From the IMG/VR virus record IMGVR_UViG_3300008111_001025, positions 62,001 through 126,000 of that record: a DNA stretch of 64,000 nucleotides; one strand, given 5' to 3'. Numbering within the stretch: position 1 is the first letter of the stretch; the number at the start of each line of letters is the position of its first letter. This stretch comes from a virus. Below are positions 20,246 through 58,772 of this stretch, in pieces. The position numbers were made by a program, and so were the translations under genes. The notes beneath the pieces are model-generated. The model was not told the origin of the DNA. It did not search any database and saw nothing but the letters and a program-made list of their open reading frames with translations.

Positions 20246-21128
20246 AGTAGCGGAACAGGACATTATTTTCCTTAGTTATGACGAACCTAATGCTGAAAAA
20301 AATTATGCTGACCTATGTGCAAAAGTTCCTTGGGCAAAAAGAGTTCATGGAGTTAAGGGCAGCGACGCCGCACACAAAGCATGTGCCGCACTAAGCGAAA
20401 CAGAATACTTTGTTACTGTAGATGCTGATAATATAATTGATCCAAAATTTCTTGACATTGAAGTAGACTTAGCAGAATTAGGTCTCACTACTGAGCATGT
20501 GTTTAGTTGGTGCGGAAAAGTTCACGTCAACGGCCTTATGTATGGCAATGGTGGTTTAAAAATGTGGACACGTAAATTTGTTAATAATATGCGTACACAC
20601 GAAAATTCAGCAGTTGACGACGAAAAGGGAAAAGTAGAATTTTGTTTTGACGAAAAGTATTATCAGTTCAACGACAGTTATTCAGAAAGTTTTACTAATG
20701 CAACACCTTTTCAAGCCTGGCGAGCAGGATTCCGCGAAGGTGTTAAAATGAGCCTCAACCAAGGCACTAAAACTACTGATATAAAAAAGGTGTGGTGGCA
20801 AAATTATCAACGATTACTTATATGGTGCAATATTGGTGTAGACGTTGATAACGGCATTTGGAGTACAATAGGTGCTCGAGAAGGTTGTTACATGACTAAT
20901 TGTACTGACTGGGATTATGCACAGGTGCGCGACTTTGAATATTTAACTGAGTATTGGAAAGAAAAGGGATACGGTCCTACAACAGATACTTCTGATTATT
21001 TTAATTGGTTAGGTACTGAACTTAAACACAAGTGCGGTTTAGAAGTTTCCAATATTGATAGTGACGGTTCAAAATTTTTCAAGACGGTGTATCAAAACAC
21101 GCCAAGAATAATTAAAAGGGCAAAATGA
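20235..21128 (+). CDS. GT-A-like glycosyltransferase, DAD motif (297 aa)
   Basis: The N-terminus IIFLSYDEPNAEKNY, then AKRVHGVKG, then TVDADNIID (DAD at 63-65) looks like a GT-A glycosyltransferase core with a metal-binding motif. A YGNGGLKMW segment and TPFQAWRAGFREGVK follow. The gene at 29860 shares all these landmarks in the same order (IIFISYQEPYADINW, AKRVHGVKG, VVDADA, YGYGGVK, DPFNTWKSAFRECVK), so they form a family. Start overlaps the preceding gene and the end overlaps a radical-SAM gene by an ATGA-type junction. Acceptor unknown. Confidence 0.62.
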   Translation: MKIKVAEQDIIFLSYDEPNAEKNYADLCAKVPWAKRVHGVKGSDAAHKACAALSETEYFVTVDADNIIDPKFLDIEVDLAELGLTTEHVFSWCGKVHVNGLMYGNGGLKMWTRKFVNNMRTHENSAVDDEKGKVEFCFDEKYYQFNDSYSESFTNATPFQAWRAGFREGVKMSLNQGTKTTDIKKVWWQNYQRLLIWCNIGVDVDNGIWSTIGAREGCYMTNCTDWDYAQVRDFEYLTEYWKEKGYGPTTDTSDYFNWLGTELKHKCGLEVSNIDSDGSKFFKTVYQNTPRIIKRAK

Positions 21129-22507
21129 GCAACGAGCAAAAAATACAAATACTCAAAGATAAACGAGATAAAATTAACTCAGTAAGTTGTAGTTTTTGCA
21201 CAGCTAAATGGTTACAAACAACTTTATATCTGCAAAACGGTTACAATCACAGTTGCCATCATCCTGCTCCTCATAAGATTCCTCTCGAAGAAGTACTAGC
21301 AGATCCTGCGGCATTGCATAACAGTAAATTTAAAAAAAGCCAACGTGAACTGATGCTCAAAGGCGAGCGACCTAGTGAGTGTGATTATTGTTGGAACATA
21401 GAAGATTTAAATAAAGATTATTTTAGCGATAGGCATTATAAAACATCGGATTACTGGGCATGGGATAAATTTGATCAAATTGCTAACAGCGACCCTAATG
21501 ATAATGTTTATCCTAGTTATTTAGAAATTAGTTTTTCCAATGCATGTAATTTTGCGTGTATTTACTGTAGTCCTGAAATTTCATCTAAATGGATGGAAGA
21601 TATACAACAGAACGGGTCTTACCCAGTTAAGAATGGAGCTCATCATTTAGGCTGGTTAAAACAAGTGGGACGTTATCCGTATGCACATCACGATGAGAAT
21701 CCGTATGTAGACGCTTTCTGGAAATGGTTTCCAGAAACGTTACCGCATTTAAAAGTGTTGCGTATTACAGGCGGTGAACCAACTATGAGTAAAGACTTAT
21801 GGAAATTATTAGATTACTTAATTGAAAACCCGCAGCCTGAATTAGAATTAGCTATTAACACTAACATGTGTGTGCCTGATGTATTAATTGAAAAATTAAT
21901 TAATAAAATTAATAGCTTACGAGGTGTGATAAAGCGTTTAGATATTTACACTAGTCTTGAAAGCACTGGATCTCAGGCAGAATATGCAAGAGACGGATTA
22001 GACATCAGTGTATGGCAGCAGAATGTTTGTAAAGTATTAGATAATACGCAATCAACAGTGGCTATAATGACCACTGTTAACATATTAAGTTTACCTACCT
22101 TTGTAGATTTTATAGAACTAGTAATGCAGTTACGTAAAGATTACAATACAAACTTTGAACATAATCGAATTCCGCTCAGTATAAATTATCTAAGATGGCC
22201 ACCACATTTGCAATGCACTCTTTTAGATAAAGAAGAAAGACAGCAGTATGCAGATGATATCTATGTAGCTTGTGAAAAATGGCTGAAATATTATAGCTTA
22301 GAAAAGTATGCTCGAATCTATTTAGAAGAATGGGATCAAATACAAAGATTTTGTGATTACTTACGCACAGCAGAACCAGCAGTAGAACACAGACAGGACT
22401 TTGTAAGATACATACAAGAGTATAATTTTAGAAGAAACAAATCGTTTACTAAGATATTTCCTGAATTCAAAAACTTATTAAAGGAATGGGATGCCCAAGA
22501 AGCCTGA
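21125..22507 (+). CDS. Radical SAM enzyme with N-terminal auxiliary cysteine module (460 aa)
   Basis: CNFACIYC at 141-148 gives the CxxxCxxC ligands for the 4Fe-4S cluster that splits S-adenosylmethionine. ITGGEP with GGEP at 216-219 is the SAM-binding motif. Before the core lie cysteines at 22, 25, 44, 86 and 89 in the order CSFC, SCHHPAPH, GERPSECDYCW, a SPASM/twitch-like auxiliary-cluster module placed N-terminally. A HHDENPYVDAFWKW insertion precedes GGEP. The next gene is a close paralogue with the same layout. Known SPASM/twitch enzymes often modify peptides or sugars; the substrate here is unknown. Coupled to the upstream transferase by a 4-bp overlap. Confidence 0.85.
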   Translation: MSNEQKIQILKDKRDKINSVSCSFCTAKWLQTTLYLQNGYNHSCHHPAPHKIPLEEVLADPAALHNSKFKKSQRELMLKGERPSECDYCWNIEDLNKDYFSDRHYKTSDYWAWDKFDQIANSDPNDNVYPSYLEISFSNACNFACIYCSPEISSKWMEDIQQNGSYPVKNGAHHLGWLKQVGRYPYAHHDENPYVDAFWKWFPETLPHLKVLRITGGEPTMSKDLWKLLDYLIENPQPELELAINTNMCVPDVLIEKLINKINSLRGVIKRLDIYTSLESTGSQAEYARDGLDISVWQQNVCKVLDNTQSTVAIMTTVNILSLPTFVDFIELVMQLRKDYNTNFEHNRIPLSINYLRWPPHLQCTLLDKEERQQYADDIYVACEKWLKYYSLEKYARIYLEEWDQIQRFCDYLRTAEPAVEHRQDFVRYIQEYNFRRNKSFTKIFPEFKNLLKEWDAQEA

Positions 22508-23939
22508 AGAAGATTTAAAGCAATATAGAGAACGTGTTCTAGACACTAAGAGCACCAGCTTCTGCGGAGCAAAATGGTATAATGCTACTACATGGCTAGG
22601 TAGTGGTACCACAGCAAGTTGCCATCATCCTCCAGCACATAAAATTCCAATAGAGGAAATTAAACGTAATTACACTGCTATTCATAATACTGAACATAAA
22701 AAAGAAATGCGTCGAATGATGCAGTCTGGCGAACGCCCTCGCGAGTGTGAGTACTGTTGGAAAATGGAAGACATGGGCAAAGATGCTGTTAGTGATCGAA
22801 CATTTAAAAGTATCATTTATACTGATGAAGAACTACAACAGGCGTTTGATGCAGACATAAACGAAAATACTAATTTAAAAACTTTTGAAATTGCATTTGA
22901 TAGGGTATGTAATCTTGCCTGTTCATATTGTAATGCTAGTTTCTCAACTACATGGGCAAAGGATATTAAAAACAACGGTCCTTATATTAATCTTGTAAGT
23001 GACGGCGCAGGCGCATTTCATCACGATGGATCTTGGGCACAGCCTTACAAAGACGATGAAGATAATCCCTATGTACAAGCATTTTGGAAATGGTGGGATA
23101 ACGGACTATCAGAAAGTCTACAAGAGTTACGAATCACAGGCGGCGAACCTCTAATGAGTGGTAACACATGGAAATTATTTGATTGGTTTGAAGCGCAAAA
23201 CAGTGATATGAGATTTGCTATTAACAGTAACTTAATTGCAAAGTCTGATATTATAGATAAGTTAATTGCTAAATCAAAAAATATTAAACACTTTGATTTG
23301 TACACAAGTTGCGAAGCAGTAGGCGATCAAGCAGAATACATACGTGATGGTCTAGATTATCAACTATGGAAAACAAATCTAAAAAGAATTCTTACAGAAG
23401 CAAACTATAAAGGTGTACACATAATGATGACTATTAATAGTTTATCTTTGTTTAGTATTACTGAATTTCTTGACGAAATGTACCAGCTAAAAGAAATGAC
23501 ACAAAGTAGAACTCCTACTGTTAGTTTAAATCTGTTAAGATTTCCTAGTTTTCAAAGTCCGTTGGCACTACCTAATCATATTAAAGATCATTGCCATAAA
23601 AAGCTGTCAACATGGTATGCGCAAAATAAAGACCTACCAGGTTGGCACGAATTTGAACGTGCAAGTATTGAAAGATTAATTGATTATCTTGTTACAGTAG
23701 ATGCACCTCATCGCAGAACAAGTAATCCTATTACACTGTGGAGAGACTTTAAAACTTTTTATCAGCAGTACGATCAGCGCAGATCAAAATCCATATATGT
23801 ATTTCCTAAAATTTTAACAGATTGGATTGATACTATACCTGATACAGACATAGCAATAAAAGAGTTAGCAGACAAAGAAGGCTGGGTGTTAACACCTGAC
23901 TCAAGGAACATTGATGATCCTATTGCGACCTACAATTAA
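22491..23939 (+). CDS. Radical SAM enzyme, paralogue of preceding (482 aa)
   Basis: CNLACSYC at 140-147 and ITGGEP (GGEP 217-220) mark the radical-SAM core. The N-terminal auxiliary module repeats that of the previous gene: C25, SCHHPPAHKIP around C44, and GERPRECEYCW with C86 and C89. The spacing between all of these is nearly identical in the two proteins, so this is a tandem duplication. Starts 17 bp inside the upstream gene. Two adjacent related enzymes may act on successive positions of one substrate or form a heterodimer; both are inferences. Confidence 0.85.
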   Translation: MPKKPEEDLKQYRERVLDTKSTSFCGAKWYNATTWLGSGTTASCHHPPAHKIPIEEIKRNYTAIHNTEHKKEMRRMMQSGERPRECEYCWKMEDMGKDAVSDRTFKSIIYTDEELQQAFDADINENTNLKTFEIAFDRVCNLACSYCNASFSTTWAKDIKNNGPYINLVSDGAGAFHHDGSWAQPYKDDEDNPYVQAFWKWWDNGLSESLQELRITGGEPLMSGNTWKLFDWFEAQNSDMRFAINSNLIAKSDIIDKLIAKSKNIKHFDLYTSCEAVGDQAEYIRDGLDYQLWKTNLKRILTEANYKGVHIMMTINSLSLFSITEFLDEMYQLKEMTQSRTPTVSLNLLRFPSFQSPLALPNHIKDHCHKKLSTWYAQNKDLPGWHEFERASIERLIDYLVTVDAPHRRTSNPITLWRDFKTFYQQYDQRRSKSIYVFPKILTDWIDTIPDTDIAIKELADKEGWVLTPDSRNIDDPIATYN

Positions 23940-25206
23940 TTTATATTACGATAATATTGTTAACGGAATACCTGTTCCTAACGGCATAACACGATATAAA
24001 ATTAATAAACAGTACGATATTCCAGTGATGTCTAGTTTAGAATACAGTGATCAAGTCCTTAAAACTACGTATTTTTATAATGTAATGAAGGCAAACGAAG
24101 TCACAGTTAATTTGTTTACTAAAAGAGATATGGCGTCAAATTTATTTTATCCATTGGAGCTTTCAAAAACAGCAATACGGAATCGTCTTATTGATATTAT
24201 TCCGGAAAAGACATTAACTCGTATTAAAAAACGAAAAATGAAATTATTATTACTTTATCAACAATGGATAGGTGATTATAACTTTATGCAAAATCTTAAA
24301 GAAAGAATTGATGTATTAATTCGAAACGGAGTTCCTACTGATCAAATTTATTTAATAACCGGTGATATTAATTGTTCCTATCAGGAATTATTTGACAAGG
24401 TTAAAGTATTTGGTATTGATTGGTGGCAAATTGCTTATCAACTAACTTGTAAATCTAAGTATCAAAATATTGATTATCATTGGGTCACATTTTTACTAGA
24501 TGATGAAGTGCGTGAAAGTTTTGATATCAATAATTGGAATAATCCCAGTTTACTATTTACAGCATTAACTGGTGAATCGTCAATGCATTCACTGGCTACT
24601 ATTACTGAACTAGAATCTAGAGAATTATTAGATAAAGGTTGCTATGAATTTAATGTTAAGAAAAACAAAAATCTAAATTTAGATAGTAAAATATTTACTA
24701 ATGAGTCATTGTTAAATAACAAACAGTCAAAAAAAGATATAATTAATAATTTATTATCATCTGAGACAACTATCGCAAATATATCGGAGTCATTAGAAGA
24801 CAGTCTATTTGCAATTGTAGCAGAGCCGTTCACACCTATGATGGATAAAACGTATCTGTCAGAAACAAATGCACTATGGGTATCGCCAAATATATGGAAC
24901 GCTATTGCTCAAGGTTATCCTTTTATGGTAGTAGGAAGTTTATCTACTATGCGTTATCTTAATAACGAAGGATATTTTAGTTATGTAGATCTGTTTAATG
25001 AAACATATGATAGTGTTAGTGATTTAAAAATTAAATTAAATTTAATAATGACTGAAGTTGACAGATTATCTAAATTGTCTAAAGAAGAAATTAATGATCG
25101 TATAATTTTAACAAAACCATTTATCGAGGCCAATAAGAAAAAGTTTTATGATAAAAAACACACTTGGAAATTTTACGACCTTTTCAAAGAAATGCAATAT
25201 GAATAA
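23914..25206 (+). CDS. Uncharacterised protein, possible GT-B-like C-terminal half (430 aa)
   Basis: ATG 23914 is chosen because an AAGGA element lies just upstream; a TTG at 23911 is the alternative. The C-terminal part has AIVAEPFTP, LSETNALWVSPNIWNAIAQGYPFMVVG and MRYLNNEGYFSY. This echoes the ISEGPN, ITEKTWRT, HPFIFAG, FRYIKxLGF series seen more clearly in the genes at 54497 and 56663, where it resembles the acceptor-end motif of GT10-like enzymes. The TEK core is not conserved here. A transferase role is possible but weak. It lies between radical-SAM genes with overlaps on both sides. Confidence 0.6.
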   Translation: MILLRPTINLYYDNIVNGIPVPNGITRYKINKQYDIPVMSSLEYSDQVLKTTYFYNVMKANEVTVNLFTKRDMASNLFYPLELSKTAIRNRLIDIIPEKTLTRIKKRKMKLLLLYQQWIGDYNFMQNLKERIDVLIRNGVPTDQIYLITGDINCSYQELFDKVKVFGIDWWQIAYQLTCKSKYQNIDYHWVTFLLDDEVRESFDINNWNNPSLLFTALTGESSMHSLATITELESRELLDKGCYEFNVKKNKNLNLDSKIFTNESLLNNKQSKKDIINNLLSSETTIANISESLEDSLFAIVAEPFTPMMDKTYLSETNALWVSPNIWNAIAQGYPFMVVGSLSTMRYLNNEGYFSYVDLFNETYDSVSDLKIKLNLIMTEVDRLSKLSKEEINDRIILTKPFIEANKKKFYDKKHTWKFYDLFKEMQYE

Positions 25207-26458
25207 AGATTTTAATAATTTTTGTGTAGCACCCTGGATGCACTTGCACGTCATCAACGACGGTAGAGCTTTTGCATGTTGTCAAACCCCATTAAAAAAC
25301 GAAAATAGTTTTGGAAATGTAAAAACTCAAAAACTTATAGAAATTGTTAATAGTGATCAAGCTAAAGTAATGAGGAAAAATATGCTTGAAGGCAAGCCTC
25401 TGCCTACTGCTTGTGAAAGATGTACTTCTAAAGAAGCTGTTGGACTTAATAGTATGCGAACAGGCTTTAATGATAGATGGTATGCAGAAATGCAACCGTT
25501 AATTGAACAAACAGATATAGACGGTGCCATTCCTTCATTGCAATTAAAATACTGGGATTTTAGATTTAGTAACTATTGTAATCTAGCTTGCACAACATGT
25601 TCACCACTGTTTAGTACACAGTGGGCATCTGATTGGATTAAACTACATCCTGGATACGACAAATATTCTGAAACAAGATTAATTGATTTAGAAAAAGCAG
25701 ATTTATTTTGGGACGACATTGCACAAAATTTAGATACAATGAAGCAGATACATTTTGCAGGTGGCGAACCACTAATGATGCCTGAACATTGGAAAATTTT
25801 AAAACTACTTGATGAACGTAAAAAATATGACATTGAATTAAGATACAGTACCAATGGGACCACGTTAGGTAGAGATAAAGACAATGTATTAGATTATTGG
25901 AAAAAATTTAAACATGTACATTTAAGTTTGAGCATCGATGGCGAAGGTGATGCATTTGAATATATCAGATATAAAGGTAACTGGAAATCTACATTTGAAA
26001 ATTTAAAACGTATACGAGAAAGCGGAGTAGTTGATTATTGGTTTCATCCTACAGTGAGTATATTAAATATATTTAGATTAACAGAATTGCATGAAGTTTT
26101 ACATAAAGCAGATCTTATGCCTTTAAAATCAATACACAAGCACATGGGCTTCAACATTGAAAATTATTGGGTTGATAGATTTCACCTGAATCCTTTGTTT
26201 ACTCCTGATTATTATAGTATAACAGTTCTTCCTGCCCATTTAAAAGATCAAGCCGCTGAAAAAATAACAAAGTATGGCAAGAAGCTTGAGGCTGACACAG
26301 CAATACCTTTTAGCGGTTGGCAAAATATTATTGATTTTATGTATAGTGAAGATCGCAGCATACTATTTGAAAAGTTTAAATGGAAATCGCAACAGATTGA
26401 TACTATTCGAAACAATGATGTTTTTGCATTTAATCCGGAGCTTATCAATGTTAAATAA
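25199..26458 (+). CDS. Radical SAM enzyme with N-terminal SPASM/twitch-like module (419 aa)
   Basis: The start is placed at ATG 25199, 8 bp inside the upstream gene; a longer frame to 25148 would lie entirely within that gene. The N-terminal module has C9 (FCVAPWMHLHV), CC at 27-28 and ACERC at 72-75. The core CNLACTTC (127, 131, 134) and FAGGEP (GGE 188-190) follow, then an LSIDGEG strand. The FCxxPWxH-CC-CxxC order is that of a SPASM domain, but placed ahead of the core. The 33072, 38163 and 49512 genes share this layout. Substrate unknown. Confidence 0.85.
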   Translation: MNKDFNNFCVAPWMHLHVINDGRAFACCQTPLKNENSFGNVKTQKLIEIVNSDQAKVMRKNMLEGKPLPTACERCTSKEAVGLNSMRTGFNDRWYAEMQPLIEQTDIDGAIPSLQLKYWDFRFSNYCNLACTTCSPLFSTQWASDWIKLHPGYDKYSETRLIDLEKADLFWDDIAQNLDTMKQIHFAGGEPLMMPEHWKILKLLDERKKYDIELRYSTNGTTLGRDKDNVLDYWKKFKHVHLSLSIDGEGDAFEYIRYKGNWKSTFENLKRIRESGVVDYWFHPTVSILNIFRLTELHEVLHKADLMPLKSIHKHMGFNIENYWVDRFHLNPLFTPDYYSITVLPAHLKDQAAEKITKYGKKLEADTAIPFSGWQNIIDFMYSEDRSILFEKFKWKSQQIDTIRNNDVFAFNPELINVK

Positions 26459-28242: not shown

Positions 28243-28874
28243 TTTTATTAATGGTATATGGGAAAATGCTGGAAATGAATTTTGGAATATTAAGAAACCT
28301 GACGAAATATTAGGTATAGCTCGTGTGTCTACTTACACATGGATTTTTTACTGAAGGCGGTCTAAGAAAGCCAGTTGGGGTTCATTGGAGTCCTGTGTCT
28401 CTTGACTGGAGAATACATCCGGGTGGAACAAGACAAGCAATTATAAAATATTTTGCACCCGATGAAATAGATTGTCTTTGTTTTAATACAGGCGGTCAAC
28501 CTATGCAATTTATAAAAGAATTTAACACAGTAGAAGAAATTGCTGAATATACTAATAGCTCTAAAGTTTTTTTAGTAGTTACAGATGAACGCGGTCATTA
28601 TATACCGCATGTTCATTTAGATGGATTTACTATTAAACCTGCAATGGTCGAGACACATGCACAGATGAAAAAGTTTTTTAGAAAAACTAAGATTGAAGCT
28701 AATTTTGATTTAGCTGAGTTAGGATATGATGAAACAAAAATATTAAAAACTGAAAAAAAACGCATAAAAATAACTATTGAAGATCAGTCTATGGATACAA
28801 AGGTAAAAGCAATGCTACTATTACCGTCGTTTAATAATTTTGAAGGACATGGAGTTAAAATTGAGCGTACCTAA
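28235..28874 (+). CDS. Uncharacterised gene with apparent frameshift at a T6 run
   Basis: An ATG at 28235 overlaps the upstream stop and opens 39 codons to a TGA at 28352-28354. The rest of the protein lies one base ahead in another frame, which is closed upstream by TAG at 28317. Removing one T from the six-T run at 28344-28349 joins the two halves as TYTWIF then TEGGLRKPVG. The second half carries HWSPV, WRIHPGGTRQ and PHVHLDGF. This could be a sequencing or assembly indel, true inactivation, or a programmed shift. A GTG at 28323 would start the second frame alone but lacks a ribosome-binding site. No function assigned. Confidence 0.6.
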
Positions 28875-36590: not shown

Positions 36591-36614
36591 TACTGACCTT
36601 TTTTTAATTGTATA

Positions 36615-40689: not shown

Positions 40690-40717
40690 AGGATAACTGC
40701 GCACTTAATTTAGAAGC

Positions 40718-40725: not shown

Positions 40726-40730
40726 TTATT

Positions 40731-49522: not shown

Positions 49523-50666
49523 GACATATTGCGTATATCCTTTTATAAGTTCTAGTCTGCAAGCAGATAACACAGTTTTGCCTTGCGGACAGTTTATGAA
49601 ATCTACTCTATTTCAAAACATTATTCCAATAAATGAAGTAAGACACGGCCCTGTAATGCAAGAAATGCGTAGAAAAATGTTAAACGGCGAACGAGTAGAA
49701 GGATGTCAATGCTATGCTGAAGAAGATGTAGGTATTCCGTCAATGCGCCAAAGCGGACTTAACAAATATGAATTTACTACTGACACTACAATAAAAAAAT
49801 TAGAATTAGTCATGGATAACATCTGTAACATAAAATGCAGAAGTTGTGGTTCACCTAATAGTCATACTTGGCACGAAGATGAAATAAAAATTTACGGAGA
49901 ATCTTTTTCTAAGAAAAAATATATTAAAAATACTTTATACAAAGATCTTGAGTTAGATAGCTTAATTGAAATAGAAGTTCTTGGTGGTGAGCCAATGTAC
50001 AGTCCGGGAACTAGAGATTTTTTTAAATTATTAAAAGACAAGGACATTTTAAAAAATCTTTCTATACAACTAAGCACAAACGGAACTATAGAACCAACTG
50101 ACTCTGTATTAGACAGTTTATTAAGTTGTAAAGAATTAAGTTTAAATATTAGTATAGACGGATTTGGTCATTATAATGATTATATTAGAAGCGGCTCCGA
50201 TTGGAATGCAATTGAACAGAATTTAAAATTTTATGATAACTTAATTGATTTAAGAAAAGATAAAAAAACATCAATGAACGTGCATACGGCAGTAAGCATT
50301 TATAATGTAAACCAACTCGACTTGTTAGACAACTACGTTAAAGAACACTTCCCTAGATTTTCTAAAACATTTCAACTAGTACAATATCCAGTATTTTTGT
50401 CTATTAAAAACACTCCATTAGAATATAAAGAACTAGTCTCTAAATACATTAATAACGATAGTATTACTGAATATCTCAACTCAGAAGGAAATGATCATTT
50501 CCAACATTTTATAAACTATTCTCAACAGCTTGATGAAATTAGATCGGAAGATATGGCAGAATTTAATCCGCTGTTAAAACAATATATTGAAAAGTATACT
50601 TCTAAGGTAACTAGAGCAGAAAGTAAAGTTTTTTTAATAAAAGAATTTAAAAAACTACAAAATTAA
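49512..50666 (+). CDS. Radical SAM enzyme with N-terminal SPASM/twitch-like module (384 aa)
   Basis: Start at ATG 49512 (11 bp inside the oxygenase gene). YCVYPF (C7), LPCGQF (C25) and GCQC (65-67) form a reduced N-terminal module, with a single Cys where relatives have CC. The core CNIKCRSC is at 105-112, VLGGEP at 157-161, and ISIDGFGHYNDYIRSG follows. VGIPSMRQSG is the S-R motif seen before the core in all family members here. The 3' end is convergent with the 50663 gene (4-bp overlap). Confidence 0.85.
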   Translation: MTSKTYCVYPFISSSLQADNTVLPCGQFMKSTLFQNIIPINEVRHGPVMQEMRRKMLNGERVEGCQCYAEEDVGIPSMRQSGLNKYEFTTDTTIKKLELVMDNICNIKCRSCGSPNSHTWHEDEIKIYGESFSKKKYIKNTLYKDLELDSLIEIEVLGGEPMYSPGTRDFFKLLKDKDILKNLSIQLSTNGTIEPTDSVLDSLLSCKELSLNISIDGFGHYNDYIRSGSDWNAIEQNLKFYDNLIDLRKDKKTSMNVHTAVSIYNVNQLDLLDNYVKEHFPRFSKTFQLVQYPVFLSIKNTPLEYKELVSKYINNDSITEYLNSEGNDHFQHFINYSQQLDEIRSEDMAEFNPLLKQYIEKYTSKVTRAESKVFLIKEFKKLQN

Positions 50667-51886
50667 TTCCAGTCTAGATTATAATGCCAAGTTGGTTTTT
50701 TTAAAGTTTCCATATTAGTAATTTTAAAATCTTTACTAATTCCCAATGTCTTTAAATTTTCTACAAATCCAACTGCGGCCCTAATATTAAAATTAATTGT
50801 ACATTCAGGAACTTTTTCTTTTAATGAATTAATAATTTCATTTTCTTTGTGTACCCTATAGTACAACGGTGACAAACATGCTGTACCTTCGTAGCAAAAA
50901 ATATTTGATAAATTAATTAACGTAGTTGAATTATGCTCTGCGTTGATGTAATCTATAAGATTATTTTCTAATAGTAAATCGGCTTTTACAAATATATACT
51001 CAATATTATTCTTTTGTTGAATTTTGTTCTTCCAGTAGTTTAAAGCATTATCATTGTAATCATAAACAACGATTCGACCCTCGTCAATTAAATCAGTATA
51101 AAGTAGACCACTAGCTGGAATAATTAATTGTGTAAATTTTTTATTAACATTGCTATGTTCTTCGGTATTTTCTGTATGAATAAATTCAGATGCTGCATAC
51201 TTTTCTCGAAAGTATACCCAATTAAGATTTTCTAAAAAGTCTTTTTTAGATTCTGGATAAAGATGTTTTTTGTTATGTCTAATATCGTTATTAAATATTT
51301 TAACAGGCAGATTATATGTAAGTGCTAAACTTAATATATTCCATCCGTGACATTTATGATCATATGATTTAGTTTGATATCCAGTTTTAACCCAAATAGG
51401 TGTATAATCATCGTGTATATTTTCTACACTTCTTTCTGGAATCACTTGAGTATGTTTAGTACCAAGCTCTAATTGACCAATTGCTGGACAACCTAATTTA
51501 CGATATATTTCTAAATTTATTAGATAACACTGATTGTGCAGTTCATAATATGCGGTACCTCTATCTAGAATATGTCCATAGATAAAAAAATCGTCTTTGA
51601 TAAGATCTTCTAATGAATTAAAAAACTCACTTCCGTTAATAAATTCTGTCCCAGTACTAAAGACAAGAGCATAGGTATAATCTAAATTTGCTACATGTTG
51701 TAATACAGTATCCTCATTTAAAGACTGATATACATCATAATTTTTATTTAGTACATTTGATAATGTATAATCAGACTGATTTTTTATAATTTCCTTACAA
51801 AAATTATCTTGTATCTGATTAGTATTATCTATAAAACAAAATGCAATCTTATTAGAAGAATTATAATTGTACTCAACTACATTCAT
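50663..51886 (-). CDS. Two-part protein: GT-like N-terminus and Rossmann/methyltransferase-like C-terminus (407 aa)
   Basis: The N-terminal ~200 residues have FFIYGHILDRGTAYYELHNQCYLINLEIYRKLGCP, a pattern seen in GT-A-like phage proteins, but no clear DxD. The C-terminal ~170 residues carry LIIPASGLLYTDLI, then RIVVYDYNDNAL (a SAM-site-like acidic turn) and LINLSNIFCYEGT, suggesting a Rossmann-type methyltransferase fold with a degenerate glycine loop. Both assignments are structural guesses. Last gene of the minus-strand operon from 53617. Confidence 0.5.
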   Translation of the reverse strand: MNVVEYNYNSSNKIAFCFIDNTNQIQDNFCKEIIKNQSDYTLSNVLNKNYDVYQSLNEDTVLQHVANLDYTYALVFSTGTEFINGSEFFNSLEDLIKDDFFIYGHILDRGTAYYELHNQCYLINLEIYRKLGCPAIGQLELGTKHTQVIPERSVENIHDDYTPIWVKTGYQTKSYDHKCHGWNILSLALTYNLPVKIFNNDIRHNKKHLYPESKKDFLENLNWVYFREKYAASEFIHTENTEEHSNVNKKFTQLIIPASGLLYTDLIDEGRIVVYDYNDNALNYWKNKIQQKNNIEYIFVKADLLLENNLIDYINAEHNSTTLINLSNIFCYEGTACLSPLYYRVHKENEIINSLKEKVPECTINFNIRAAVGFVENLKTLGISKDFKITNMETLKKPTWHYNLDWN

Positions 51887-52884
51887 TTTTTATAAAATTT
51901 AATAGGCAAAACATTTTCTTCGGTCAATATTACTTCATTTTGAGATGACGGACACATTGAACATTCACTAATTGGTTTATACTTAGAAATAGAAAAATTT
52001 TCTACTTCTTCGTCAGTACAATTAGTTAAGTCAAGAGGTTTGTATGCTAAAAATTTCTGCCATTCTTCGTCGTCGACTGCATTATGTCTTTCTAAAAAGT
52101 TTTTTAAAGTTCCTAATGCTGCACACTTATAAAGTTTTTTATTATACATAAATGTACAGTAACAACTTGGACAGTTACCATAATAAGCCTTTTCAATATC
52201 CGTTGAGTTAAACGGTTTTGGTTTATTATCTTTCATGTAAAAATGTTTTAGATGGGAATCTTGATCAATTGAAAGTACACCGTACTGGCCGTTCCACCAA
52301 AAGTCATCATCAGGCGGAATTGGTGATTTATTTTCTATAGCACAATAAGCATTATGTCTATAGTCCTTAACATCAATCCAATAATTCCTCCAACCATCAG
52401 TAGAGTCGTACATCATCTTTGACCAAAAATTCTCACTAGGAAGTTTTTGAATATCAAGTTTTTCTGTTAACACTTCAACGGCAGCTTTTATTCTATTTGA
52501 TCGAGTCTTATCTTCAAATTGAATAAAGTGATCACTAACTAATATCATAACTTTATACTTAACAATAATATTAGATAAGAAGTCTATGTTCTTATCGATA
52601 AGTTCGCCATTAGTTGGAATCCATACTGGTGTAGTTTGATCAAAGCTTCTAATAAATTCTAGGAGTGATTCAATTCTGTCTTTGTATAACAGTGGTTCAC
52701 CGCCTAGTAAACTATAGTGTTCAATATGAAACTTTTCTTTAGTTAACAGAATTCCTTCTTTGATTGTTTCAAGGTCAGGATCATGTTCTCCTTTTCTAAT
52801 CAAGTCACTACGTGTATCACACTGTTGGCAGGCAATTTGACATTTATTGCCGTAAAAAATATCAAAAACTTTAAGATTGGGCAT
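51883..52884 (-). CDS. Radical SAM enzyme (333 aa)
   Basis: Start at ATG 52884, which has AAAAGGA 6 nt upstream and overlaps the hydroxylase stop by 14 bp; longer starts to 52929 would lie inside that gene. CQIACQQC at 15-22 and LLGGEP (GGEP 61-64) form the core. NCPSCYCTFMYNKKLYKCAALGT and ECSMCPSS supply C-terminal cysteines. The plus-strand gene at 53661 has the same plan (LGGEPLL, DCFQIYNGDIYKCSNL, FCSMCPNS), so they are paralogues across the divergent promoter. Confidence 0.84.
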   Translation of the reverse strand: MPNLKVFDIFYGNKCQIACQQCDTRSDLIRKGEHDPDLETIKEGILLTKEKFHIEHYSLLGGEPLLYKDRIESLLEFIRSFDQTTPVWIPTNGELIDKNIDFLSNIIVKYKVMILVSDHFIQFEDKTRSNRIKAAVEVLTEKLDIQKLPSENFWSKMMYDSTDGWRNYWIDVKDYRHNAYCAIENKSPIPPDDDFWWNGQYGVLSIDQDSHLKHFYMKDNKPKPFNSTDIEKAYYGNCPSCYCTFMYNKKLYKCAALGTLKNFLERHNAVDDEEWQKFLAYKPLDLTNCTDEEVENFSISKYKPISECSMCPSSQNEVILTEENVLPIKFYKK

Positions 52885-53617
52885 TATATTCCTTTTTATA
52901 ACTTCTAGCAACGAGTTTAGTAAACTCACTTGTTTTATTTTCTAATTTACCGTGCGCAATTAAATGTATCCTAGACGTGTTAGATAAATTTATTACGCTA
53001 TGATAATTTCTAATATTTATGATAAATGCTTTTCCGGTTTTAAATGGAACACATCCGTAACCGTCCAAGCTCATATAACATTCTTCTGGATGTACTAATG
53101 CTATGTTTATGGGAACTCCAAATTTGAGAGCATCAAAGTTTTCTTCACCAGGTAATTTACCAGGGGCATCACTATGCGGGCTAATATGCCCTCCTGCTTC
53201 CAATTCCATAAATCTTATTCTTCTATAAGTATCGTACGGAAAGTTCTTCCAAAATTCTTTAATTACAGGTGTTTTGGATGCTACCGGGGTCCAATCATAT
53301 GGTACTTGATCTTCATGGGTGTAACCATACGAAGTCCATGCACCGGTGCTAGCCGCGTTTATACCGTGTATACAGCAACTATTCCACCCATGACTATCGC
53401 TTTCTCTATGAGGAACTAAATGTACTTTTGAATCCTCAGCTTCTTTAATCCATTTATCAACATCAAACTCAATATCAAGTTCTAACCAACCAAAATTACT
53501 TTTGTTCAATAACCAATCTGCTATTTCATAATCAGTTTTCGCCCATTCAGGCATTTTAGGTAAGTTAGATTTTATATTTTTGTTTTTGTGATAAAAATCC
53601 AACGCAGTGGTATTCAT
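52871..53617 (-). CDS. Aspartyl/asparaginyl beta-hydroxylase-like 2OG-Fe(II) oxygenase (248 aa)
   Basis: LEAGGHISPHSDAPG gives HxD (H148, D150); IRNYHSVINLSNTSRIHLIAHG gives the distal His (H206) and Arg (R216). This is the clearest match to the Asp/Asn beta-hydroxylase family in the island. Known members hydroxylate peptidyl residues or free amino acids. Heads the minus-strand operon 53617-50663; a shared palindromic late-promoter element lies upstream (27 nt from octamer to ATG). Confidence 0.82.
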   Translation of the reverse strand: MNTTALDFYHKNKNIKSNLPKMPEWAKTDYEIADWLLNKSNFGWLELDIEFDVDKWIKEAEDSKVHLVPHRESDSHGWNSCCIHGINAASTGAWTSYGYTHEDQVPYDWTPVASKTPVIKEFWKNFPYDTYRRIRFMELEAGGHISPHSDAPGKLPGEENFDALKFGVPINIALVHPEECYMSLDGYGCVPFKTGKAFIINIRNYHSVINLSNTSRIHLIAHGKLENKTSEFTKLVARSYKKEYNAQS

Positions 53618-53660: not shown

Positions 53661-54494
53661 ATGAACACAAAAATAAAAATCCCACATCTTGAGTGGCATG
53701 TTGCTCATGCTTGTAATCTATCTTGTAAAGGTTGTTGCCATCTTTCTGATTATGGGCAAAAAGGAATAGTTAGTTATAATGAGATCAAAGACTGGTATTC
53801 AAAATGGAGTCATAGACTAGCACCAAAATCAATAGACATTTTAGGGGGAGAACCTTTATTAAACAAAGATATCTGTAAAATTATTTCTTTAACAAGAGAA
53901 ATGTGGGATGATCCGTATCTAGAACAATTACAATTAACAACTAACGGACTTTTAATTCACAAATTTCCAGATTTACCTAAAGTATTAAAAGATTCTAATT
54001 GTTCTATTTCAGTGTCTTGGCATAGTGAAGATCCAAGTTATAATAAATTGTTTGATAAATCTAAAAACATTTTAAATGAATGGGTAGAAAAATACGGAAT
54101 CCAAGTTCGTATACTAGATTTTTATAATTATTGGACTCCATTTTATAAAGGTTACGGTAGCACTATGGAACCGTTTAACGAAGAAAACTTTGAAAAAAGT
54201 TGGGATAATTGTATAACGGGACAAGATTGTTTTCAGATATATAATGGCGATATTTATAAATGCTCAAATTTAGCGTACTTGCCTATGACTAAACAAAAAA
54301 TTAATCTTTCAGAGAATTGGGATTATTATCTAAGTTATGTTCCACTAAAGCCGGAAGCTTCGGACAATGAAATTACAGAGTTTTTTAATAAAGGTGCAGA
54401 AAAATTTTGTAGTATGTGTCCCAATTCAGTTGAAATGATTAAAAAACCAGATCCTTTAAAATTTCGTAAACAAATACTGATGAAGAAAATTTGA
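53661..54494 (+). CDS. Radical SAM enzyme (277 aa)
   Basis: CNLSCKGCC at 18-26 and LGGEP (GGEP 62-65) make the core. NCITGQDCFQIYNGDIYKCSNL and FCSMCPNS are the C-terminal cysteine elements, as in the divergent gene at 51883. It is the shortest radical-SAM protein here. It starts 4 nt after a TATAAATA octamer with no Shine-Dalgarno. The downstream transferase-like gene overlaps or abuts its stop. Confidence 0.84.
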   Translation: MNTKIKIPHLEWHVAHACNLSCKGCCHLSDYGQKGIVSYNEIKDWYSKWSHRLAPKSIDILGGEPLLNKDICKIISLTREMWDDPYLEQLQLTTNGLLIHKFPDLPKVLKDSNCSISVSWHSEDPSYNKLFDKSKNILNEWVEKYGIQVRILDFYNYWTPFYKGYGSTMEPFNEENFEKSWDNCITGQDCFQIYNGDIYKCSNLAYLPMTKQKINLSENWDYYLSYVPLKPEASDNEITEFFNKGAEKFCSMCPNSVEMIKKPDPLKFRKQILMKKI

Positions 54495-54496
54495 TT

Positions 54497-55699
54497 ATGA
54501 AACAAGGAAGATTAATAAACTTTGAATTACTGTGGGATACTGACCTAAGCGTCAATGTTGTATTACCAAAACTACTTGAATTAGAATTTCAAGAAGCAGT
54601 AGCTGACGGAGTAACTACCATTTTTGGAATGTTTTTAATGGAGGGAATTTATCCGCATGATTGTCATAATCAACAACTGTTTTTAGAAATTAAAAAAATA
54701 GCTGACAAATACAATTTAGAAGTTATTCTATTGTCAGGCCTTGGAGAAAGTTTTAACAATCAGTATAGTATAGAAAATGGTAGTATTTTAAACAATCTTC
54801 CATTTGAGGTAATATACTCATCATATCCTTTAAGAGTATGTTACAACATCATTAATAATATTCCTAGAAAATCAAAAACTATCAATAATAAGTTTTTATT
54901 CTTAGGTGGAATTCCTACTAGATTAAATAGAATTTATTTATTAAGTAAGTTGTATGAAAACAATCTTTTAATAAATGGTAAATGGTCATTTTTTATTCCG
55001 TTATCCCAAGAAGATAAAAATTATTGCAGAAATTTATTATCACATTATTCAGATGAAGAGTACGAAACTTTTTTAAAAAACTGTACTAGCTCAATAGATG
55101 AAAAATATCAAGAAATGGCTAACTTTTTTCAAGACTATGCACCGTACGAAGAAGGCGATCTTGAAAAGTGGGGCGAAATAGTTCATACTGATTTTTGGAA
55201 AAATCCTATATACATAGATCCTGAAGTTTACGATGAAACTTCGTTAAGTATAATTTCTGAAGGTCCAAATTATTGGTCGCCTGATTATAAATTTATTACA
55301 GAAAAAACATGGCGGACAATAATTTATAAGCATCCTTTTATATTTGCAGGCCCGCCTGAACAGTTTAGATATATTAAACAAATGGGATTTGAAACATTTG
55401 AAAAATATATGCTTATTCAAAATTATGCACAGGTGGAAGATGAAAAAGAAAGAATTGAATTGATTGTTAAAAATGTAGAACATTTTTTAAAACACCAAAC
55501 TTATCATCAAAAAGAAATACAACAAGATATTGAACATAATTTTAACTTATTCTTAAAACTAGCCAATGATCAAAATTGTCTACTAACATCTTTAAAATCA
55601 AAATACAATATTCCTGATGCTGAGTTTTCAAAATTTTTTAGTACAACCGGCTATGAAAATTTGATTAGGCCCGTTGCCGACCTCAAAAAATTAGGCTAG
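54497..55699 (+). CDS. Glycosyltransferase-like protein with TEKT motif (400 aa)
   Basis: ATG 54497 chosen; TTG 54491 overlapping the upstream stop is an alternative. SIISEGPNYWSPDYK, then FITEKTWRTIIYKHPFIFAG, then FRYIKQMGFETFEKY match the 56663 protein and recall the E-x-TEK-x-P-G segment of GT10 fucosyltransferase-like enzymes. The N-terminal half has the shared INFELLW and LEFQEAVADGVTTIFGMFLMEG stretch. It is one of two paralogues that flank a PLP enzyme gene. Sugar donor unknown. Confidence 0.6.
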   Translation: MKQGRLINFELLWDTDLSVNVVLPKLLELEFQEAVADGVTTIFGMFLMEGIYPHDCHNQQLFLEIKKIADKYNLEVILLSGLGESFNNQYSIENGSILNNLPFEVIYSSYPLRVCYNIINNIPRKSKTINNKFLFLGGIPTRLNRIYLLSKLYENNLLINGKWSFFIPLSQEDKNYCRNLLSHYSDEEYETFLKNCTSSIDEKYQEMANFFQDYAPYEEGDLEKWGEIVHTDFWKNPIYIDPEVYDETSLSIISEGPNYWSPDYKFITEKTWRTIIYKHPFIFAGPPEQFRYIKQMGFETFEKYMLIQNYAQVEDEKERIELIVKNVEHFLKHQTYHQKEIQQDIEHNFNLFLKLANDQNCLLTSLKSKYNIPDAEFSKFFSTTGYENLIRPVADLKKLG

Positions 55700-55767: not shown

Positions 55768-56682
55768 ATGAAAAATAATTACGATAAACGGCATCTTCCT
55801 TTTGGACATTCTACAGCTATACAAGACAAAGAAACATTATCTTTTATCAATAATTGTAGTATCTCAACACAAACATTAAACGATCAAACAATTAACGAAC
55901 AATTCCTTAGCAAGTATGTAGAATGGATATTGACTACAACAAATAACAAAGTAACTGGTATTGATCAGTATCCATTCAAATGTTTTTCGCAAGGGACATC
56001 TGAAGCGTTTGAAAAATTTTATATGAATTATTCTCATAGAAGATTTCGATGTTTTAAAGGCGAGTATGTTTATCATAAATTAGCTTGGAGAGATGATAGA
56101 TTTAATTGGAAATACTTAGAGGATGATGCGCTTGATGCCAATGACGTAGTAATAATTAGTCAACCTTTTTCTGATACAGGCGATCAGCATCCTTTACTTA
56201 ATGATATTTTAGATCAATGTGACAAACTAAATATTCCTGTAGTACTTGATTGTTGCTACTTTGGTATTTGTAGTAATATAAATTTTGATTTTACAAGACC
56301 TTGTATAAAAGAAATCATCTTTAGTTTATCTAAAACTTTTCCAGTAGCTCATATTAGAATAGGTATGCGTCTTTCAAGGATTGATAATGACGATTTGTTA
56401 TTTGTGTATAACAAAAGTGGCTACACAAATAGATTAGCAGCAAGTATAGGACTTAATCTTATTAATCATTTTGATTCTGACTACATAGTTAATAAGTATA
56501 AAAATAAACAAATTGAAATCTGTAAAAAATTAAATGTAACTCCTAGCAATACTGTGTTGTTTGGAATAGGCGGCTCTGAATGGCAGGAATACAATCGTGA
56601 TAGAGCTACTAACAGATTAGGATTACATAATTTTTTACACATGGAAGATACAGAGTGCTTAGATGAATATGTCAAAATCTAA
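55768..56682 (+). CDS. PLP-dependent aminotransferase-like protein (304 aa)
   Basis: SLSKTF gives the Lys (K189) that would form the PLP aldimine. VVLDCCYFGI gives Asp161 and Tyr164, which contact the ring nitrogen and oxygen. RIGMR gives Arg197, as in fold-type I aminotransferases. SQGTSEAFEKF near 74-84 is the phosphate-binding region. It is short for the fold (about 360-400 is usual); the N-terminal or the small-domain part is reduced. It sits between two transferase-like paralogues and could add an amino group to a keto-sugar, inferred. Confidence 0.7.
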   Translation: MKNNYDKRHLPFGHSTAIQDKETLSFINNCSISTQTLNDQTINEQFLSKYVEWILTTTNNKVTGIDQYPFKCFSQGTSEAFEKFYMNYSHRRFRCFKGEYVYHKLAWRDDRFNWKYLEDDALDANDVVIISQPFSDTGDQHPLLNDILDQCDKLNIPVVLDCCYFGICSNINFDFTRPCIKEIIFSLSKTFPVAHIRIGMRLSRIDNDDLLFVYNKSGYTNRLAASIGLNLINHFDSDYIVNKYKNKQIEICKKLNVTPSNTVLFGIGGSEWQEYNRDRATNRLGLHNFLHMEDTECLDEYVKI

Positions 56683-57850
56683 AATTATAAATTTTGAATG
56701 GATGTGTGATCACAATCATTACACCCATGAACAATTTGATAAAATTAAAACTGATTTAATTAAAAAAGACATTGATCAAGCCATAGATGAAAATGTTGAT
56801 ACTGTTGTAGGGCTTTATCTAATGGATGGGTTTTTACAACCTAAGTATAGATACAAAGAGTTTATTTTGCACCTAAACGAAATAAAAGATTATGCTTACA
56901 ATGCTGGAATTAAAAAAATAATTCTAATAAGTGGCCATGGCGAAACATTAGATAATTGTCCCTTTGAATACCTGTTTTTAGATTTTAATCTTAGATTATT
57001 AATTAATAGCTATCCTGATCTAAATGTATTACCTAAATTCAATCCTGAAAATACAAAGTTTCTCTTTTTAACTGGCATGCCAAATAGACCTAATCGTATA
57101 GGTCTATTGAGCAAGTACTATGATAAAGATTTATTAGACACTGCTGAGTGGAGTTTTTTTGGCCCATGGACACCTATGGATCAATCTTGGTGTAGAGAAT
57201 ATCTTAAACATTATAGTGATGAACACTACAATACATTTTTAATTAATTGTGAAAGATCTTTTGATAATAGATATGAAACGTGTAAGCCATTCTATGGATC
57301 GTATACTTCAACGGAAAATGCACCGCTATGGTATGATGTAGTTAATATTGACTGGGTTCAATTACCCAGTCATATTGATTCTAAAGTATATAGCGATACA
57401 CTTTTTAGTGTTATATCTGAAGGTCCAAATTTTTGGTCTGAAGATTGGAGTTTCATTACAGAAAAAACATGGCGAACTTTTTTACATCGTCATCCTTTTA
57501 TATTTGCCGGGCACCCTGATCAATTTAGATATATTAAGAAACTTGGATTTAAAACATTTGAAGAATATTTGTTAATCAAAGATTACGCCTATATTGAAGA
57601 TGAAAATGAAAGACTAGATGCTGTAGTCAAAAATACAGAATACTTATTAAAAAATATAAAAAATAATTTAGATGCTATAGAAAAAGACGTAGAATATAAT
57701 TATCAAATGTATTTTAATCATGTAAACAATCAGGATAAAATTTTTAAATTCTTAAAGCACGATTTAAATGTTTCGTCAGATGATATCCAGCCATATGCTA
57801 ATATCAAAGGTTATCCGTATCTCATTAGGAGAATACCTGATGGATTCTAA
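56663..57850 (+). CDS. Glycosyltransferase-like protein with TEKT motif, paralogue of 54497 gene (395 aa)
   Basis: SVISEGPNFWSEDWSFITEKTWRT, HPFIFAGHPDQFRYIKKLGFKTFEEY and FLFLTGMPNRPNRIGLLSKYY match the 54497 protein (ISEGPNYW, ITEKTWRT, FLFLGGIPTRLNRIYLLSKLY). The IINFEW start corresponds to its INFELLW. Overlaps the PLP gene by 20 bp; ATG 56669 would also be possible. Its end overlaps the next radical-SAM gene. A duplicated transferase around an aminotransferase suggests insertion or duplication of a cassette. Confidence 0.6.
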   Translation: MNMSKSKIINFEWMCDHNHYTHEQFDKIKTDLIKKDIDQAIDENVDTVVGLYLMDGFLQPKYRYKEFILHLNEIKDYAYNAGIKKIILISGHGETLDNCPFEYLFLDFNLRLLINSYPDLNVLPKFNPENTKFLFLTGMPNRPNRIGLLSKYYDKDLLDTAEWSFFGPWTPMDQSWCREYLKHYSDEHYNTFLINCERSFDNRYETCKPFYGSYTSTENAPLWYDVVNIDWVQLPSHIDSKVYSDTLFSVISEGPNFWSEDWSFITEKTWRTFLHRHPFIFAGHPDQFRYIKKLGFKTFEEYLLIKDYAYIEDENERLDAVVKNTEYLLKNIKNNLDAIEKDVEYNYQMYFNHVNNQDKIFKFLKHDLNVSSDDIQPYANIKGYPYLIRRIPDGF

Positions 57851-58772
57851 ATGTGCAGCTTTCTGGAAACATACTAATGTTCGTAGCGATAACAAAATAT
57901 TTCCCTGTTGTAGATTTAAGAATCCTGTAGATAATTTCAACGGCGATTTAATTCATATATTAGAGTCCAGTGCATATAAAGAACTTAGAAAAAAAAGTTT
58001 AAACGGTGAATTTATCCAAGGTTGCGAAAAATGCTATTACGAAGATGCCAACGGTAGGCAAAGTCTTCGACAACGATTAAACAAAGAATATACTACTGAC
58101 ACAGTTGAATTAGAATTTTTAGAAATAGGGTTTGACAATATATGTAATTTAACCTGTGACGGATGCTGGAGTGATTTTAGTTCCGAGTGGAGTAAAAAAC
58201 TTAACCCTACTGCAAACAAGATTACTCACTATCGTTCAGTTGATGAGATTGTTAAAGTTCCGTCTAGTATTAAAAAAATACTCTTTTTAGGCGGTGAACC
58301 TTTAATGACCAACCGGCATGAAAAGTTTTTAAAACTAATTGAAAATCCAGCAGCAGTTGAAATAATTTACAACACTAACGGAATGTTTTTGTTAAAAGAA
58401 GAATTTATTAATTTTTTACATCAGTTTAAATCGGTAAAATTTACGTTAAGTATTGATGGGTACAAAGATCTAAATAACAAAGTTAGATCTGGAAGTAAGT
58501 GGGAAGATATTTTAAGTTTTATAGAACAGATATCTAAATCTAACTTTGATCTAGAAGTGAATACAGTGTTACATTTAAATAACTGGCACGGAATAAAGGA
58601 GCTTGAATCCTTTATACAACAATTAGGAGTACCGTGGATAGTAAATGTTTTAACATATCCTACACATTTAGATATTTCTAATTTTGAACAAAAGGAACAA
58701 ATTATTAATTTGATTAGCGAAACAAACATTCCAAATAAAACTTATGTCATTAACCATCTATTACATAATTAA
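57840..58772 (+). CDS. Radical SAM enzyme with N-terminal SPASM/twitch-like module (310 aa)
   Basis: ATG 57840 lies 8 nt after AGGAG (57827-57831) and overlaps the upstream stop by 11 bp; an in-frame start at 57768 would put 24 extra residues inside the upstream gene. C5, CC at 23-24, GCEKC at 62-65 and SLRQR precede CNLTCDGC (102-109) and LGGEP (GGEP 151-154). It is the shortest member of the N-terminal-module family, so its core looks truncated at the C-terminus. LSIDGYKDLNNKVRSG is present. Confidence 0.84.
   Translation: MDSKCAAFWKHTNVRSDNKIFPCCRFKNPVDNFNGDLIHILESSAYKELRKKSLNGEFIQGCEKCYYEDANGRQSLRQRLNKEYTTDTVELEFLEIGFDNICNLTCDGCWSDFSSEWSKKLNPTANKITHYRSVDEIVKVPSSIKKILFLGGEPLMTNRHEKFLKLIENPAAVEIIYNTNGMFLLKEEFINFLHQFKSVKFTLSIDGYKDLNNKVRSGSKWEDILSFIEQISKSNFDLEVNTVLHLNNWHGIKELESFIQQLGVPWIVNVLTYPTHLDISNFEQKEQIINLISETNIPNKTYVINHLLHN

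Follow-up and report, generated by a model that had tools for sequence, protein, structure and literature searches.

Fifteen radical-SAM genes in a phage island

We describe an island of genes for radical S-adenosylmethionine (radical-SAM) enzymes in a stretch of viral DNA, hereafter the window, which comprises the 64,000 nucleotides at bases 62001-126000 of IMG/VR record IMGVR_UViG_3300008111_001025 (the full record, G000, has 145,344 bases). The island lies at window positions 21125-58772 and holds 42 genes, 15 of them with a CxxxCxxC motif. Within it is a core of seven genes (30515-41390), R30, R31, NTWa, R37, NTWb, MT32 and U40, whose composition and layout are conserved across viral loci, with the radical-SAM motif and auxiliary cysteines kept. 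We suggest, with somewhat less than even confidence, that these genes, which lie in the tail-fibre region of the phage, form an orphan cluster for tailoring, with a surface glycan as the most probable target.

The record encodes a portal protein (phrog_213, E 4e-113), a baseplate-wedge protein (phrog_10646, E 1e-298), an SbcC-like nuclease subunit and a DNA polymerase, and because of this set we take its source to be a T4-like phage, known from environmental DNA alone. The island is flanked by tail and baseplate genes on the left and by an Mtd_N gene on the right (61537, minus strand). On the left, a single open reading frame (ORF) of 5217 amino acids (aa) occupies record bases 54826-70479 (ending at window position 8479), directly after the baseplate-wedge gene and ahead of the tail genes; it is possibly a VrlC-type baseplate protein. 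Genes overlap at 38 of 47 junctions and the widest gap is 80 bp, although the ORFs were called mechanically from the first start codon, which exaggerates the overlaps and makes some starts differ from those of an earlier note on the window. Because five IMG/VR contigs encode core proteins at 100% identity, and the same gene order is found in L015 and L017, the island is not an assembly accident. Window positions 14001-39000 had no near DNA match in the phage collection.

Radical-SAM enzymes are oxygen-sensitive and demanding to make, and to our knowledge few phages have been reported with several of them. The CxxxCxxC motif is carried by 15 of the 48 ORFs that start within 20-61.6 kb, against a mean of 0.15 carriers and a maximum of two in 500 rounds of a shuffled-residue control. 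The earlier note had named these 15 proteins as radical-SAM enzymes, and all of them match PF04055 at E<1e-3, 12 above its gathering score; the three below it are 22491 (20.5 bits), 31494 (29.2 bits) and 34423 (minus strand, 21.4 bits). A PF04055 search of the whole record returned 15 places, 14 within the window (34423 was missed) and one weak match (17 bits) outside. GGEP, which the note had seen in most, is exact in 12 of the 15, the variants being GSGEP in 28840, GNLGDP in 31494 and GSGDP in 34423. Its count of at least three architectures also holds: extra cysteines are present in all 15, N-terminal to the radical-SAM core in eight and C-terminal in seven, and the Pfam SPASM domain is N-terminal in 25148, 33072, 34423, 38163 (minus strand) and 57768 and C-terminal in 28840 and 31494. 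Ten proteins were scored with NF033640 (N_Twi_rSAM, "twitch domain-containing radical SAM protein"), namely 21125, 22491, 25148, 28840, 30515, 33072, 34423, 35499, 37283 and 38163. Five of the ten passed at 302-415 bits, with a cut-off of 170 (21125, 22491, 25148, 33072 and 38163), and the other five, among them 34423 (54 bits), stayed below it. NF033640, to which the window thus contributes at least five members, is a family that is named for a domain, not for a pathway.

A conserved core and its variable surroundings

On the plus strand, the core begins with R30 (30515-31501; PF04055 E 2e-12), which has the motif CNYNCSYC, GGEP and C-terminal cysteines, followed by R31 (31494-32480; PF04055 E 1.3e-6) with a C-terminal SPASM domain (E 1.6e-4), MT32 (32470-33075), labelled methyltransferase-like by eye and with no Pfam match, and the N-terminal-twitch enzyme NTWa (33072-34466; NF033640 415 bits). 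On the minus strand are the signature gene R37 (37283-38170; PF04055 E 4e-13), with eight cysteines after the motif, and a second N-terminal-twitch enzyme, NTWb (38163-39410; NF033640 320 bits). The core ends with U40 (40647-41390, plus strand), a 2-oxoglutarate (2OG)-Fe(II) hydroxylase-like protein. A structure model of NTWa (mean confidence, pLDDT, 84) resembles SPASM-type and other radical-SAM enzymes, its best match, among many tied ones, being anSME (Z 10.4, root-mean-square deviation (rmsd) 4.3, 213 residues aligned). In U40 the HxD, H and R residues are invariant across 15 aligned sequences, and a profile built from them finds Cpz10, a hydroxylase of caprazamycin biosynthesis, at E 1.9e-20. 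Cpz10 is also the nearest structure to the U40 model (pLDDT 89; Z 18.4, rmsd 2.5, 144 aligned), the next protein having Z 13.5. Motif and modelled jelly-roll together show U40 to have a predicted 2OG-hydroxylase fold; fold and metal/2OG motif are like those of Cpz10, whereas identity in the structural alignment is ~22%.

Conservation of the core was assessed in viral loci chosen through R37, comprising 34 loci of at least 18 kb among the best 80 of 141 R37 relatives, which form 32 groups at 95% R37 identity. R37 is present in these by construction; the U40, NTWa, NTWb and R31 families were likewise found in 32/32, MT32 in 30/32 and R30 in 29/32. The layout is as constant as the content, with NTWb upstream of R37 on the same strand and within two genes of it in all 32. 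In 31 of them U40 lies upstream and diverges, and in 28 NTWa is close to R37 and points towards it. A set of 27 loci selected likewise through NTWa, whose contigs overlap those of the first set, contains R37 and NTWb in every locus, U40 in 26, R30 and R31 in 25 each and MT32 in 24. Seven long relatives of 40-60 kb each were cut at fixed points, which can hide a gene that straddles one, as NTWa does in G032; R30, R31, R37, NTWb and MT32 are present in all seven, and NTWa and U40 in six. A profile scan found 498 viral stretches encoding an R37 relative at E<=1e-3, some of which may be other radical-SAM proteins, and the best 80 of the 498 are at least 72% identical. The near-universal presence of a five-enzyme set in the 32 loci, with R37 relatives in up to 498 stretches, points to a single chemical outcome under selection.

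The other ten radical-SAM genes behave differently, their best-assigned matches occurring in 3, 0, 1, 0, 1, 2, 0, 1, 1 and 1 of the seven long relatives (21125 in three, 22491 in none, 34423 in one and R35, described below, in two). The earlier note had proposed a dedicated pathway for the whole set; the five-enzyme core does look like one, but the idea that all 15 form a single pathway is not supported, since each of the ten is found in no more than three of the seven. Their scatter could also be taken to mean that there is no pathway at all and that the island is a landing zone on which unrelated auxiliary genes have piled up, a view that the 10 of 17 portal-selected records without a PF04055 match (several of them fragments) would also fit. 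Such a pile-up probably describes the outer genes. As an account of the island it is improbable, because it leaves unexplained both the fixed core, found in 29-32 of 32 loci, and the sub-cassette shared with bacteria.

Across 42 related records of at least 40 kb, each carrying a relative (G001, G002 and G024 being near-identical to the window's phage), the number of radical-SAM genes ranges from 4 to 16. The 17 portal-selected records, of at least 35 kb and taken from the best 80 of at least 598 portal relatives, include seven with radical-SAM genes (2, 12, 2, 6, 6, 4 and 16). Radical-SAM islands are therefore common in this phage group and not universal. Genes for the A-type Fe-S carrier (PF01521) were seen in four of the 12 records scanned, namely the related G006, G010, G019 and G030, and the window's record has none.

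Several accessory genes lie between or just beyond the core genes. Between NTWa and R37, all on the minus strand, are a variable radical-SAM gene with an N-terminal SPASM domain (34423-35520; SPASM E 8e-11, PF04055 E 3e-4), the accessory radical-SAM gene R35 (35499-36590; PF04055 E 4e-12) and an SGNH-like protein (36615-37286; GDSF motif by eye), and beyond NTWb is a further SGNH-like protein (39400-40020, minus strand; motif by eye). R35 recurs in 62 of 160 loci and the latter protein in 35, counts that reach only ~10 kb from R37 or NTWa and leave farther genes out of view. The earlier note had also listed SGNH proteins, and here the picture is mixed: the four at 26274, 36615, 39400 and 48294 (the middle two on the minus strand) have no Pfam match and owe their labels to motifs seen by eye, while Lipase_GDSL was matched by 2 of 94 representatives of phage-island families. 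These 94 were drawn from 109 family representatives after CxxxCxxC and short proteins had been excluded, and they also include Asp_Arg_Hydrox (6) and Mtd_N (3). Downstream of U40, on the plus strand, come K41 (41392-42069), two clustering small 2OG-oxygenase-like proteins, OX42 (42062-42637; motif by eye, no Pfam match) and its neighbour (42630-43190), and a 2OG-Fe(II) oxygenase with a cold-shock domain (43195-44226; PF13640 E 3e-10, PF00313 E 5e-8), then the K41 relative K45 (45777-46472, minus strand), the conserved protein U47 (47479-48294, plus strand; no Pfam match), whose HRD...H...R pattern suggests by eye an oxygenase, and OX49 (49025-49522, plus strand), small 2OG-oxygenase-like, also by motif. 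A profile of the K41/K45 alignment matches kinases in the PDB at E 6e-5, so both look like protein-kinase folds. In the 32 loci these families are frequent without being fixed: OX42 26/32, U47 and K41 24/32 each, PP39 and OX49 21/32 each, K45 20/32, a PLP-like family 16/32 and a GNAT-like family 15/32. The labels MT32, GNAT-like, SDR-like, SGNH and small-2OG were all assigned by eye.

PP39 (39993-40676, minus strand) aligns as a PP-loop ATPase-like protein, with SGGADS and, at its C-terminus, a cysteine motif like that of QueC. Searches of the PDB gave neither this protein nor U47 a match below E 0.36, and U47 none below E 0.9. Its motif, together with relatives that have weak C-terminal PF06508 matches, one of them (G055) just above the QueC cut-off, would suit a pathway for hypermodifying DNA or nucleotides, as would the presence in the record of GTP cyclohydrolase I near a perhaps QueE-like radical-SAM protein. 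We consider such a pathway very improbable. The window's record has no PF06508 match at E<=0.001, and in 12 virus records (some possibly fragments, three of them one near-identical phage) PP39-type genes and PTPS/QueD occur together in three, PP39 alone in five, PTPS alone in two and neither in two. That the two genes do not go together argues against a deazaguanine role, and DNA modification through QueC is unsupported. The QueE-like protein is a weak PF04055 match (28 bits) lying outside the window, near the cyclohydrolase gene (E 6e-40), at record positions 131666-134516 (L013), and the pair suggests a separate, putative deazaguanine pathway, although no PTPS/QueD match was found in the record.

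Farther out, and on the plus strand unless stated, are radical-SAM genes with N-terminal twitch domains at 21125-22507 (NF033640 325 bits) and 22491-23939 (302 bits), one with an N-terminal twitch/SPASM region at 25148-26458 (379 bits; PF04055 E 6e-14), one with a C-terminal SPASM domain at 28840-29844 (PF04055 E 1e-10, SPASM E 6e-11) and one with N-terminal cysteines at 49491-50666 (PF04055 E 8e-8), followed by those at 51883-52929 (minus strand; E 4.5e-8), 53661-54494 (E 8e-10) and 57768-58772 (E 2.5e-13; SPASM at residues 29-90). The oxygenases and amidinotransferase that had been noticed earlier are supported by Pfam: besides 43195 there are two Asp/Asn beta-hydroxylase-like 2OG oxygenases, at 52871-53617 (minus strand; PF05118 E 3.5e-8) and 59405-59980 (PF05118 E 4e-6), and an amidinotransferase/arginine-deiminase-like protein at 59958-61049 (PF02274 E 3e-6). 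Transferases are present as well. A pyridoxal phosphate (PLP) aminotransferase-like gene at 55768-56682 (PF00155 E 6e-4) is just under the cut-off; on either side of it, at 54491-55699 and 56663-57850, are two similar proteins of ~400 aa with no Pfam match. To the left of the core lie a nucleotide-sugar epimerase gene (18753-19670; PF01370 E 4e-37) and two members of the GT29 family, at 20235-21128, glycosyltransferase-like by a DxD-type motif only and of a family also seen in Bdellovibrionota cassettes, and at 29860-30543 (no Pfam match).

A bacterial counterpart in Bdellovibrionota

Homologs of NTWa that are 45-50% identical occur in Bdellovibrionota contigs (L176-L193), where they are adjoined by R30, R31 and often MT32 and GT29, the order R30-R31-NTWa-MT32 being kept in L176, L178 and L181. 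R30 itself is 53-58% identical to three Bdellovibrionota copies. It is present in 17 of 290 Bdellovibrionota genomes, a sample that includes six genomes found beforehand, with a single match in 16 of the 17 and two partial matches in the other. Nine stretches chosen through R30 contain an R31-like gene in every case, NTWa at 45% identity or more in eight, an MT32-like gene in seven, and GT29-like and PLP-like genes in four each. The contigs that carry this cassette are up to 1.6 Mb long, with the cassette among housekeeping or glycan genes, a length that marks the longest of them, at the least, as parts of cell chromosomes.

In trees, the phage and bacterial copies fall into separate clades (SH-aLRT support 100 in the R30 tree, 99 in the NTWa tree), with bacterial sequences below 44% identity left out and L193, maybe a phage contig, counted as bacterial. 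So clean a split fits one old sharing event, which may have gone in either direction. R37 was sought in cellular genomes with two short patterns, and none of the 39 pattern stretches was a relative; an R37 profile gave partial or weak matches in 13 of the 290 genomes, the best scoring 145 bits over positions 9-177 of 297. We read R37 as virus-specific on this evidence, with distant orthologs possible. A U40-like gene at 31% identity was present in one bacterial stretch.

Two contigs, L193 (140 kb, from a Bdellovibrionales metagenome-assembled genome (MAG)) and L346, have homologs of the phage tail-region genes 14640, 16721, 17065, 17918 and 20235 adjoining R30 and NTWa, so the cassette may be borne by a Bdellovibrionota phage, or a provirus, as well. 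A portal search of the 17 R30-bearing bacterial genomes gave no match, but the query matched nowhere at all and the result is uninformative. The 3.5-kb contig L175, titled as a Thermoplasmata MAG, encodes NTWa at 66% identity with R35- and R37-like genes and is probably a viral fragment binned with an archaeon.

Candidate products and known phage systems

What the core acts upon must be judged from its neighbours and enzyme classes. Among 99 non-radical-SAM neighbours of the bacterial cassette (CxxxCxxC and short proteins excluded; 25 of 130 families listed), Glycos_transf_2 (GT2) was matched by 10, Polysacc_synt_2 by 3, and Asp_Arg_Hydrox and QueC by 2 each. As a control, a GT2 model was run on the nine cassette stretches (148 ORFs), where it matched 14 ORFs in six stretches, and on 18 further stretches from these or sister genomes, where it matched none among 263 ORFs. 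We base the glycan reading on these GT2-like genes together with the conservation, gene order and enzyme classes of the core. It is supported by the epimerase and GT29 genes to the left of the phage core, and by the resemblance of U40 to Cpz10, which acts on a small amino-acyl nucleoside: Cpz10 is the caprazamycin beta-hydroxylase, and its substrate is an amino-acyl uridine (PMC9814697). Support also comes from the pelagimyophages, whose host-recognition clusters, as described in 2020, gain radical-SAM cassettes and carry O-chain glycosyltransferases (PMC7029224).

The core consists of two opposed units: on one strand NTWb-R37, next to which, beside NTWb, U40 diverges, and on the opposite strand R30-R31-MT32-NTWa. 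In the glycan reading, R30, R31 and NTWa could perform radical chemistry on a unit that resembles a sugar or an amino acid, which MT32, U40 and the interchangeable 2OG, PLP, kinase-like, acetyltransferase-like, short-chain dehydrogenase/reductase (SDR)-like and SGNH genes might then methylate, hydroxylate, aminate or acylate before glycosyltransferases attached it to a surface glycan. The phage could thereby alter the surface of the host cell, masking receptors or keeping rivals out, or it could change a glycan that its own adhesins bear, and the variable outer genes would vary the decoration between phages.

The substrate, product and target of the pathway are putative, and several points weigh against a glycan target. 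Signs of surface-glycan genes, seen beside the bacterial cassette, are weak in phage: no glycosyltransferase family is among the 25 of 62 Pfam families listed for the 94 phage-island representatives, and GT29 was found in just 4 of 32 phage loci within ~10 kb. GT29 could not be upheld as a proven glycosyltransferase, having no Pfam match, no PDB match better than E 0.15 and, by hhalign, a 9.8% probability (E 0.003) of relation to GT2. Even in the bacteria, the GT2 model of the control had been built from six of the 14 ORFs that it matched and is biased to the cassette neighbours, and a second domain may account for some of the matches; when one general GT2 sequence served as query, it matched only itself. 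In addition, SPASM enzymes act mostly on peptides, and NTWa's nearest solved structures (Z 10.4, with ties) include many peptide or protein maturases.

These last two points suit an alternative in which tail-fibre or adhesin proteins of the phage itself are the substrates and are modified post-translationally, making fibres tougher or more variable. Radical-SAM/SPASM enzymes would then act on side chains or backbone, and the Asp/Asn-hydroxylase-like enzymes would hydroxylate residues. The location of the island, between tail/baseplate genes and the Mtd_N gene, fits such a role, as do the Asp_Arg_Hydrox and Mtd_N families among its neighbours (6 and 3 of the 94 representatives). However, the place of the bacterial sub-cassette, in contigs of up to 1.6 Mb and amid housekeeping or glycan genes, speaks against it, and we regard this alternative as unlikely, if worth keeping in mind.

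A secreted effector directed against rivals or the host, either a small molecule like the nucleoside antibiotics or a peptide like the ribosomally synthesized and post-translationally modified peptides (RiPPs), might be expected from a mixture of radical-SAM, Cpz10-like 2OG hydroxylase, PLP-like, kinase-fold and methyltransferase-like genes that recalls natural-product clusters. The tight packing of the island leaves little room for a precursor gene, at least among ORFs of 60 aa or more, and so disfavours a separate RiPP precursor; nor is there a transporter among the Pfam matches listed for the scanned window genes. An effector of this kind seems to us rather improbable.

A more elaborate reading, which we find possible but doubtful, is that the island is a virus-borne assembly line, in which at least five radical-SAM enzymes and a 2OG hydroxylase would work one after another on a single scaffold, yielding a new compound or surface decoration. 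A rare bacterial cassette with three radical-SAM enzymes would have been extended by the virus-specific-looking R37, and perhaps by NTWb and U40, and diversified by swaps of accessory genes. Identification of the product would reveal new chemistry and the benefit to the phage, and the small bacterial counterpart would allow tests in cells, with no need to grow the phage.

The earlier note did not recognise such a system as described, but the view that a density of radical-SAM genes like this one is undescribed is not supported. An ocean T4-like genome of 183 kb, TARA_ERS488813_N000010, was reported in 2017 with 12 radical-SAM genes (PMC5332604), and the T4-like Campylobacter phages CP220 and CPt10 were reported in 2010 with 11 and 12 radical-SAM proteins and with exchangeable clusters of 10-12 genes, each of which has a putative glycine amidinotransferase alongside five radical-SAM genes (PMC2853527). 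Dense radical-SAM islands in phages are thus already known as a kind. Topical searches of the literature yielded no description of the conserved seven-gene core, its spread or the bacterial sub-cassette. TARA_ERS488813_N000010, as compared by its published description, differs in carrying an A-type carrier gene, of which the window's record has none by PF01521. The pelagimyophage cluster, which lies between VrlC and gp14, is similar in its large size and variability, in its place next to tail fibres within the structural region, and in having both glycosyltransferases and radical-SAM cassettes, and differs in that a conserved radical-SAM core is not among the features described in the available part of its source (PMC7029224).

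Like CP220 and CPt10, the window combines many radical-SAM genes (15) with an amidinotransferase homolog, 59958, in a T4-like phage. Their radical-SAM genes appear, from sequence comparison, not to be orthologous to those of the window. Against a 30-kb stretch of CPt10, R37 reached 21% identity over residues 14-246 and 31-36% over shorter parts, and NTWa and NTWb had no match at E<=0.01; across 50,697 phage records, neither R37 nor NTWa had a match covering 80% of the protein. By tblastn, the 59958 protein is distantly homologous to the putative glycine amidinotransferase of CPt10, with 23% identity over 308 aa (E 6e-15).

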